A stretch of DNA of 64,000 nucleotides from Prochlorococcus marinus str. MIT 9312 (GTDB taxonomy: Bacteria > Cyanobacteriota > Cyanobacteriia > PCC-6307 > Cyanobiaceae): contig NC_007577.1 in assembly GCF_000012645.1 (NCBI RefSeq), forward strand, positions 372,001 to 436,000, written 5' to 3'. This document shows, one piece after another, positions 25,870 to 28,276 of this stretch (within the stretch, counting starts at the first letter, position 1; each line of letters begins with the position of its first letter). The notes below the pieces were generated by a model. That model was given only the letters and a program-made list of their open reading frames with translations. It was not told the DNA's origin and did no database searches. The position numbers and the translations under genes are program-made.

Positions 25870-26022
25870 CTTATTAATAAATAAGATAATACAATTTCAT
25901 TAAATTAGAACTGGTAATTATTAAGGCTTTATAAAGCTTGTACTTTTAAAAGTTTCTTCGCAGTAGATAATTTTTTTTAATCCCACAGAAAAGTTATTTA
26001 AACTCTATATTTGTATAAAAAT

Positions 26023-26415
26023 ATGAAAAATAAATTAACCTTTTTATTCGATGGTGGATGTCCACTTTGTTTGAGAGAAACGAATTTTTTAAAAAAAAGA
26101 GATATCTTAAATCAAATTTCATTTATAGATATTAATAGTAAAGATTATGACCAAAGCCTATTTAATGACATCTCATATTCAGAAGCCATGTCAAACCTGC
26201 ATGGGATTATGGAAAATGGTGCAATTATTAGGGGACTAGACGTACTTGCATATTCTTATGAATTAGTTGGTTTAGGCTGGGTTTATTATCCTTTGAAGAT
26301 TAAATTCTTATCTCCCATGTTAAGGCTGGTTTACAGATATTGGGCAAAATATAGACTTCAAATTACGGGTCGATCCGATATTGAAAAAATTTGTACCTCT
26401 CAATGTGAACAATAA
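26023..26415 (+). CDS. DCC-family thiol-disulfide oxidoreductase-like protein (DUF393)
   Basis: Read from the ATG at 26023 it has 130 residues; a TTG 12 bases upstream is less likely. The DCC hallmark FLFDGGCPLCLRE is at the N-terminus and has an Asp followed by a CxxC pair, in a thioredoxin-like fold. The next segments, MENGAIIRGLDVLAYSYELVGLGWVYYPL, are typical of DUF393. The stop is two bases before the DUF2805 gene, which makes it the first gene of the photolyase group. Confidence 0.82.
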   Translation: MKNKLTFLFDGGCPLCLRETNFLKKRDILNQISFIDINSKDYDQSLFNDISYSEAMSNLHGIMENGAIIRGLDVLAYSYELVGLGWVYYPLKIKFLSPMLRLVYRYWAKYRLQITGRSDIEKICTSQCEQ

Positions 26416-26417
26416 AT

Positions 26418-26654
26418 ATGGACAATATCGACATAGACAGAATAATAGAAATGTGTTGGGAAGATAGAACACCCTTTGAAGCTATTGAGTATCAATTTGG
26501 TTTAAAAGAGGAAGATGCGATAAAAATTATGCGACAAAATCTTAAACCTAAATCCTTTAAAGTTTGGAGAAAGAGAGTTTCGGGAAGAAATACAAAACAT
26601 ATGTTGCTTAAAGATTCAACTAGATTTAAATCTACTCATAAAAGAAAATTATAA
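26418..26654 (+). CDS. TIGR03643 / DUF2805 family small protein
   Basis: A 78-residue basic protein, MDNIDIDRIIEMCWEDRTPFEAIEYQFGLKEEDAIKIMRQNL then KPKSFKVWRKRVSGRNTKH. This matches the DUF2805/TIGR03643 family, which has a helix-turn-helix-like first half and a basic second half, and is often encoded next to cryptochrome/photolyase-related genes. Function is unknown. It is tightly packed between the DCC gene (2 bases) and the DUF2256 gene (3 bases). Confidence 0.82.
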   Translation: MDNIDIDRIIEMCWEDRTPFEAIEYQFGLKEEDAIKIMRQNLKPKSFKVWRKRVSGRNTKHMLLKDSTRFKSTHKRKL

Positions 26655-26657
26655 ATT

Positions 26658-26783
26658 TTGAAAAATCTTTCTACTAAAACTTGTCCTGTTTGCAATAGGC
26701 CGTTCGAGTGGCGTAAAAAATGGAAAAACTGTTGGGATGATGTTATTTACTGTTCAAAAAGATGTAGTAAGAGGAAGTCATAA
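26658..26783 (+). CDS. DUF2256 zinc-ribbon micro-protein
   Basis: A 41-residue protein starting with TTG at 26658. It has the DUF2256 pattern [14 protein letters not shown] followed by [18 protein letters not shown], with two CxxC-like cysteine pairs that probably bind zinc. The family has no established function and commonly neighbours photolyase/cryptochrome genes. The stop codon ends two bases before the ATG of the photolyase gene, so the two are surely co-translated. Confidence 0.82.
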
Positions 26784-26785
26784 AG

Positions 26786-28276
26786 ATGAAACAAGTATCA
26801 ATTATTTTCCCGAATCAACTTTTTAGAGAAAGCCCAATCTTAAAAATAAGTTGTGATATTTTAATTTTGGAAGACTCATTATTTTTTGGAAATGATAAAT
26901 TTCATAAATTAATTAACCATAAAAACAAGTTAGTTTTTCATAGAGCATCTATGCTCGCTTATAAAAAATATTTAGAAATATCTGGCTTTAAAGTTTTATA
27001 TATCGAAAACAAGAATAATATTTCTACAGTTGACTATTTATCAGAATTTATTAAAGATAAATATCAGAAAATAAATCTCATAGAACCGCATGATTTTTTA
27101 ATAATGAAGAGGATAAATCATTTTGTTGAAAGTAATAATTTAGCTTTAAATGTTTTGCCTTCTCCTATGTTTATGAGCAGTGAAGATTTAAAAGAGTTAT
27201 TTGCATTAAATACAAAAAAACCTCTTATGAGGAGATTTTATGAGAATCAAAGGAAAAGCCAAAAGATATTAGTTAATCCGGATGATACACCTGAAGGTGG
27301 CAAATGGAGTTTCGATGAAATGAATAGAAAAAAATTACCAAAAAAAATAACCATACCTGATATACCCAAGTTACTAAAAAATAACTTTGTAGTTTATGCC
27401 GAAGAGTCATTAGCTAATTTTGATATTGAGTTTATTGGAGAAAGCAATAACTTTTTATATCCGACTAATTTTGATGAGGCAGATGAATGGTTAAATGATT
27501 TTTTTAAACATAGATTTTTTTTATTTGGAGATTACGAAGATGCTATTTCTAAAGAAAATTCTTTTTTATGGCATAGTTTACTTTCTCCTCTTTTAAATAG
27601 TGGTTTATTGACTCCAGATGAAGTTGTAAATAAAGCATTACTTTTTGCCAAAATTAATAATGTTTCCATTAACTCTTTAGAGGGTTTTATTCGTCAAATT
27701 ATTGGATGGAGAGAATTTATTTGCCTTGTTTATAAGAAGTATGGAACAAAGATGAGAAATAGTAATTTTTGGAATTTTGAAAATAAACCAATTCCAGAAT
27801 CTTTTTATAAGGGAAATACAGGAATTGAACCAGTAGACGTTGTTATAAAAAATATTATTAAATTTGGTTATTGTCATCATATTGAGAGGCTAATGATTAT
27901 TGGTAACTTTATGCTTCTATGTAGAATTCACCCTAATCAAGTTTATAAATGGTTTATGGGAATGTTTATTGATTCTTATGATTGGGTGATGGTTCCTAAT
28001 GTTTATGGAATGAGTCAGTTTAGTGACGGAGGTATTTTCTCAACTAAACCATATATATCAAGCTCTAATTATGTAAAAAAAATGTCAAATTTTAAAAGTG
28101 GACCTTGGTGTTCAATATGGGATAGCTTATTTTGGAAATTTATTAAAGATAATGAAAGTTTTTTTAGAAAGCAATATCGACTGTCTATGTTAACGAGAAA
28201 TCTTGACAAAATGTCAGATGAAAAATTAAATAATCACTTAAGAACAGCTGATAAATTCTTAAGAGATATTCAATAA
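26786..28276 (+). CDS. Cryptochrome/photolyase of the prokaryotic FeS-BCP (6-4) class, cluster ligands apparently lost
   Basis: A 496-residue protein homologous throughout to bacterial (6-4) photolyase PhrB/CryB: FPNQLF at the N-terminus, RRFYENQRK, GWREFI (307-312), YCHHIERLMIIGNF (362-375) and VPNVYGMSQFSDGG (403-416). Relatives bind [4Fe-4S] with four cysteines. Here the first position is Pro349 in TGIEPVD, and the CxxC-x(about 13)-C segment after KMS is shortened to NFKSGPWCSIWD, leaving one cysteine (Cys442). A cluster is thus unlikely. FAD-binding and repair of UV photoproducts are inferred from the family. It ends the DCC-DUF2805-DUF2256-photolyase cluster. Confidence 0.85.
   Translation: MKQVSIIFPNQLFRESPILKISCDILILEDSLFFGNDKFHKLINHKNKLVFHRASMLAYKKYLEISGFKVLYIENKNNISTVDYLSEFIKDKYQKINLIEPHDFLIMKRINHFVESNNLALNVLPSPMFMSSEDLKELFALNTKKPLMRRFYENQRKSQKILVNPDDTPEGGKWSFDEMNRKKLPKKITIPDIPKLLKNNFVVYAEESLANFDIEFIGESNNFLYPTNFDEADEWLNDFFKHRFFLFGDYEDAISKENSFLWHSLLSPLLNSGLLTPDEVVNKALLFAKINNVSINSLEGFIRQIIGWREFICLVYKKYGTKMRNSNFWNFENKPIPESFYKGNTGIEPVDVVIKNIIKFGYCHHIERLMIIGNFMLLCRIHPNQVYKWFMGMFIDSYDWVMVPNVYGMSQFSDGGIFSTKPYISSSNYVKKMSNFKSGPWCSIWDSLFWKFIKDNESFFRKQYRLSMLTRNLDKMSDEKLNNHLRTADKFLRDIQ

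Follow-up and report, generated by a model that had tools for sequence, protein, structure and literature searches.

The [4Fe-4S] cluster of the prokaryotic (6-4) photolyases has a role that is still called elusive in the available text of PMC12082625. A photolyase gene of this class in Prochlorococcus marinus str. MIT 9312, for which loss of the cluster had been predicted, raises the questions of whether the ligands are truly gone, how old the change is and which lesion the enzyme repairs. The gene lies on the forward strand at 26786-28276 of the window, the 64,000-nucleotide stretch of DNA analyzed here, in a genome that consists of a single contig of 1,709,204 bases; all features described below lie on the same strand. 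We conclude that it is very probably the Prochlorococcus phr2 (PromaPL) gene, belonging to an ancient cluster-free branch of the class and most likely encoding a (6-4)-repairing enzyme.

An intact gene and a PhrB-like fold

As the original prediction held, the protein is full length. The open reading frame is intact and encodes 496 residues, and Pfam detects both the N-terminal domain (DPRP, PF04244, 1e-41) and the FAD domain (FAD_binding_7, 9.4e-7), while NCBIfam returned no match for the protein. Its best solved relatives include 8ijy, 9hnk, 7ykn, 5kcm/4dja and 3zxs. The AlphaFold2 model (mean pLDDT of 96, no residue below 70) has the PhrB structure 4dja as its top solved match (Z of 48.7, rmsd of 2.1 for 485 aligned residues), far above the Z of about 29 reached by the best class II and class I photolyases among the matches listed, so that the fold is PhrB-like. 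Residues 2-496 of the model align on residues 2-507 of 4dja from end to end, leaving no extra signalling part. This bears on the possibility that the protein is a cryptochrome-like light sensor and not a repair enzyme, a role for which the related CryB, described as a regulator of genes, offers a precedent; given the end-to-end match to PhrB and the retention of the repair residues described below, we consider a sensor highly unlikely and continue with the reading as a repair enzyme.

A promoter and terminator scan gave no informative signal (19 promoter-like sites, compared with 21.9 after shuffling), and a search of 50,697 phage records found no homologue of the photolyase. The host genome has only three FAD_binding_7 matches, namely the window gene, a class I-type gene and a Phr7-type gene, and no Phr1-type gene was found among them; Phr1 is also reported missing from two HLI strains in the available text of PMC9426592.

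The iron-sulfur ligand positions

Alignment with PhrB places no cysteine of the window protein at any of the four ligand positions (PhrB 350, 438, 441 and 454), the set that marks the FeS-BCP subtype. The column of the first ligand, PhrB Cys350, is occupied by Pro349 (codon at 27830-27832), and proline is found here in all 147 cluster-free homologues of the survey described below, where all 72 four-cysteine homologues have cysteine. The loop following the KMS motif, which houses C438 and C441 in PhrB, is shortened by about 10 residues to NFKSGPW (residues 435-441; 28088-28108), so that no residues are left for this pair. Ser443, and not the preceding Cys442 (28109-28114 for the two codons), is the counterpart of PhrB Cys454, the fourth ligand, whose column holds cysteine in 72/72 four-cysteine and 0/147 cluster-free sequences. 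Three of the four ligand positions had been predicted to be changed, with Cys442 remaining nearby; the proline and the deleted CxxC loop stand, but the fourth position has changed as well, and Cys442 is one residue off. The column of Cys442 is Ala in 69 of the 72 four-cysteine homologues, and among the 147 cluster-free sequences it varies, with another residue in 40 (Cys 107, Gln 29, Thr 4, Ala 3, Asp 2, His 1, Glu 1). Because it aligns with the Ala of ACPFN and gives way to Gln in 29 relatives, Cys442 was ruled out as a surviving or relict ligand. The proposal of a PhrB/CryB-class member without the cluster ligands is supported.

A cluster might still be bound through cysteines elsewhere, for which Cys442, Cys363 and Cys379 are the obvious candidates, since they recur in 107, 106 and 142 of the 147 cluster-free sequences, respectively. 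However, none of the three falls in a ligand column, the CxxC loop is gone, and Cys442 and Cys363 are each replaced in about a quarter of the cluster-free group. We regard a bound cluster as extremely improbable and take the site to be cluster-free.

The cluster-free site has conserved residues of its own. Trp441 and Trp445 are invariant in 147/147 cluster-free sequences and Asp446 is present in 146/147, with Trp441 positioned near the start of a helix that spans residues 440-455 in the model. For PhrB, the available text reports that every cluster-removing mutant tried was either unexpressed or insoluble, and therefore the cluster-free branch must have compensated for the missing cluster. Pro349, together with Trp441 and Trp445 on the helix right after the shortened loop, would occupy the space of the cluster, and we infer that these residues fill the former cavity and let the protein fold without a cluster, perhaps as a packing substitute.

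Two forms among the homologues

Across 219 homologues, 147 lack all four ligands and 72 have all four, with none mixed. The count leaves out the window's own gene and a Prochlorococcus-type phr2 on a contig filed as the Rhodobacteraceae MAG DT_101, which is probably misbinned. One share of the survey came from a contig scan with the patterns HHIERLM[VIL] and WVM[VG]PNVY (the best 80 of 590 confirmed matches), and as these patterns favour cluster-free sequences, the lack of mixed sites within that share is not an unbiased count. The PF04244 samples of genus, family and phylum genomes carry no such pattern bias; they cover Cyanobacteria only, with part of the matches read.

Comparison with other Prochlorococcus homologues gave a single form. 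Each of the other 44 Prochlorococcus rows in the survey is cluster-free like the window protein, and so are 20 of 20 further Prochlorococcus loci at the loop, with the qualification that some of the Prochlorococcus loci may come from the same genomes as others. A later set of forty loci keeps the same split, with 34 cluster-free and 6 four-cysteine sequences, one of the latter (L267) repeating another (L044); for two of the forty (L266 and L287) the reading covered just the loop, and in-frame stops interrupt a third (L284).

Within the family, 84 genomes of other genera have a PF04244 match, which is of the four-cysteine form in 35, of the cluster-free form in 48 (both sites were read in 47 and just the loop in one) and an N-terminal fragment in 1. 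None of the 84 showed both forms, a second match in genome G126, a fragment with a stop, being left outside this count. In each of four genera (g4, g16, g20 and g24) both forms are represented, divided between different genomes. This pattern, in which the two forms were not seen together in a genome and both are found within single genera, makes it seem that one replaces the other within the family, probably by horizontal transfer, and the replacement in turn suggests that both do the same job. Further afield, two very large Persicobacter plasmids (NZ_AP025293.1 and CP012852.1) carry homologues with 46% and 43% identity at places where no gene is annotated, and the homologue on NZ_AP025293.1 is cluster-free.

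Age of the cluster-free state

In a tree of 73 of the 219 homologues (56 cluster-free versus 17 four-cysteine rows) a single branch divides the two forms (support of 100 in the quick tree and 100/100 in the careful tree), with the window photolyase on the cluster-free side. The separating branch is retained after removal of the ligand-region columns (100) and with the N-terminal domain alone (99), the two longest rows having been removed in both controls. By record label the cluster-free side comprises at least seven phyla (Bacteroidota, Verrucomicrobiota, Planctomycetota, Pseudomonadota, Ignavibacteriota, Balneolota and Cyanobacteria), in addition to two MAGs labelled Thermodesulfobacteriota and Lokiarchaeota that may be misbinned. 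The window gene groups with sequences from a second Cyanobiaceae genus (100/99), within a set of other Cyanobiaceae and Verrucomicrobiota (95/86), and the cluster-free genes of the family occupy at least two well separated positions in the tree. The spread of one cluster-free branch over at least seven phyla indicates that the change long predates Prochlorococcus.

The original prediction had put forward, as a possible reason for the loss, adaptation to surface water that is poor in iron and exposed to UV. Prochlorococcus does live in a habitat low in iron, and the abstract of the 2019 FEBS J paper by Ma et al. reportedly suggests that PromaPL lost its cluster under iron limitation. A recent loss in this genus, driven by scarcity of iron at the surface, is difficult to reconcile, however, with a single deep clade that crosses many phyla, with 147 homologues that share the Pro349/Trp441/Trp445 form, or with the many carriers that, judged from their names only, do not belong to open-ocean genera. 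No four-cysteine sister sequence was seen inside the marine clade in either the 219-homologue survey or the 73-row tree. A loss specific to Prochlorococcus is ruled out by the trees, which speak against low surface-ocean iron as its cause there, and we consider the iron-driven scenario very improbable. The older change shared by the whole cluster-free branch remains the preferred reading.

In a tree rooted on class I and Phr4/Phr7 photolyases the two forms are each other's sister groups (81 and 93; long branches were flagged), and this topology does not itself decide between loss and primitive absence. In the Phr4 photolyases of the outgroup the first cysteine falls in the corresponding column and the sequence shows a CxxC...CPF end, and the available text of PMC3204975 likens the cysteine set of PhrB to that of the primase PriL. 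On these matching cysteines the cluster looks ancestral, and we would favour loss over primitive absence. The Phr7 photolyases present an apparent second, separate loss of the site: two Phr7-type sequences of genus g32 keep the first cysteine (GIDCFDTW and GLDCFDTW) with the CxxC loop gone, and the Phr7-type sequence of the window's genome has lost even the first cysteine.

Catalytic residues and likely function

His365, Arg368, Leu369, Trp389, Tyr423, Tyr429, Asp177 and Asp252 are present in all 147 cluster-free sequences and Met409 in 146 of them; Asp177, Asp252 and Trp389 extend unchanged to all 219 homologues, and Tyr423 and Tyr429 are Tyr in 147/147 and 72/72. The pair His364-His365 (27875-27880; His364 in 146/147 cluster-free sequences) corresponds to PhrB His365-His366, of which His366 is needed for (6-4) repair (PMC4619345). 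Tyr423 and Tyr429 (28052-28072) correspond to PhrB Tyr424, which binds the lesion (PMC4619345), and Tyr430. Asp177 (27314-27316; PhrB Asp179, CcPL Asp178) and Asp252 (27539-27541; PhrB Asp254, CcPL Asp253) form a predicted Mg2+ site, the two Asp residues of CcPL having been predicted as Mg2+ ligands (PMC12082625). Trp389 (27950-27952) is the counterpart of the electron-transfer residue Trp390 of PhrB, and Tyr341 (27806-27808) takes the place of a second one, Trp342 (PMC4619345); among the 147 cluster-free sequences this position is Tyr in 109 and Trp in 21.

Because the His, Tyr and Asp residues linked to (6-4) repair in PhrB are invariant, (6-4) repair would be favoured over CPD repair. In the proposed mechanism FAD would be bound in the usual pocket, and under blue light the excited FADH- would give an electron to the (6-4) lesion; Tyr423 would hold the lesion, His365 would supply the proton and Mg2+ at Asp177/Asp252 would assist.

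The published opinion on picocyanobacterial Phr2 differs, in that PMC9426592 infers from the missing cysteines that it is a probable CPD photolyase and states in its Discussion that, of the four family members in Prochlorococcus, none seems to be a gene for a (6-4) photolyase. On such an account the cluster and the (6-4) specificity would both have been lost. The Tyr at the position of the electron-transfer Trp342 likewise speaks against our overall reading. The inference from the cysteines seems weak to us, since the lesion-site residues stay the same when the cluster is missing: the equivalents of PhrB His366, Tyr424, Tyr430 and the two Asp are invariant in this group. Among the family genomes read, none was found with the cluster-free and four-cysteine forms together, and PMC9178010, in the text available, lists PromaPL among the prokaryotic 6-4 photolyases. 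A CPD photolyase is on balance unlikely, and (6-4) repair is retained as the probable function.

Neighbouring genes and DUF2256

The photolyase gene is the last of four genes on the same strand, separated by gaps of 2, 3 and 2 nt. The first encodes a DCC1-like (PF04134) thiol-disulfide oxidoreductase family protein (26011-26415), the second a DUF2805/TIGR03643 protein of 78 residues (26418-26654), and the third, 2 nt upstream of phr2, a DUF2256 protein of 41 residues with a TTG start and four cysteines arranged as CxxC...CxxxC (26658-26783; PF10013, 4.9e-18). Among genes flanked by 300 nt or more on each side, DUF2256 occurs no farther than 400 nt from 59/139 cluster-free genes (44/44 Prochlorococcus-like and 15/95 others) and from 2/71 four-cysteine genes, a contrast that is only suggestive because taxon sampling differs between the two sets. 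Bacteroidota and a Cyanobiaceae genus other than Prochlorococcus also have DUF2256 next to cluster-free photolyases.

At the level of whole genomes DUF2256 is present in 77/79 genus genomes with PF04244 and 0/22 without (genomes off the non-match lists being placed by elimination), in 85/93 and 1/28 family genomes, and in 55/58 phylum genomes with PF04244, yet also in 34/136 without; the three sets of counts are not independent, because the genomes are related and the samples overlap. The 34/136 do not uphold DUF2256 as a strict partner of the photolyase class at phylum scale. The literature searched for DUF2256, DUF2805 and TIGR03643, a scope from which subscription papers mostly fell out, contained no link between DUF2256 and photolyases. 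It is a doubtful extension of our reading that the cluster was anciently swapped for a core of one proline and two tryptophans with DUF2256 as a dedicated partner, for example a metal-binding clamp or a maturation factor.

Comparison with known systems

A cluster-free Prochlorococcus photolyase and a cluster-free subgroup are already known, and the initial guess that such members had been described in the genus was right. The PromaPL/Phr2 naming is said to go back to the 2019 FEBS J paper by Ma et al. The available text of PMC9178010 describes PromaPL of P. marinus as a prokaryotic 6-4 photolyase that contains no cluster and sorts 110 sequences into subgroups, all of which have the four cysteines except M (20 members, including PromaPL); Phr2 corresponds to PromaPL and is likewise without a cluster (PMC9426592). 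Elsewhere, 7% of 464 members are reported without cluster cysteines (PMC4619345), and several CcPL orthologues miss them (PMC12082625). We take the window gene as the PromaPL orthologue on the basis of class, genus and the single PF04244 match per genome, which holds for 78/79 same-genus genomes that have one, the exception (G023) having it in two pieces. The gene looks broken in that genome, its pieces being separate, and in a second one of the genus (G077), where it has three in-frame TAA codons. In the features compared, namely genus, class and lack of cluster cysteines, no difference was seen between the window protein and PromaPL/Phr2, and subgroup M is presumably the clade delimited here, with 20 of 110 sequences there versus 147 here with tree controls. 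No mention of the Pro349/Trp441/Trp445 signature was found in the available text of PMC9178010 or in the other literature searched, subscription papers lying mostly outside that scope.

A large natural branch without the cluster is a ready control for the role of the cluster, and it fits a mainly structural one; its conserved replacement signature names the residues to test. The FAD-domain relatives Phr7 and Phr4/5/6 of picocyanobacteria (Phr4 with four cysteines, Phr7 without the full set) differ from the window protein in their reversed domain order (PMC9426592) and form separate clades. The closest structural comparison is with PhrB (4DJA), CryB (3ZXS), CcPL (9HNK) and SePhrB (8IJY), all FeS-BCP proteins, which resemble the window protein in the fold over about 485 residues and in the catalytic His, Tyr and Asp. 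They differ from it in carrying four cysteines and a cluster where the window protein has none, and PhrB additionally in having Trp342 in place of Tyr341.
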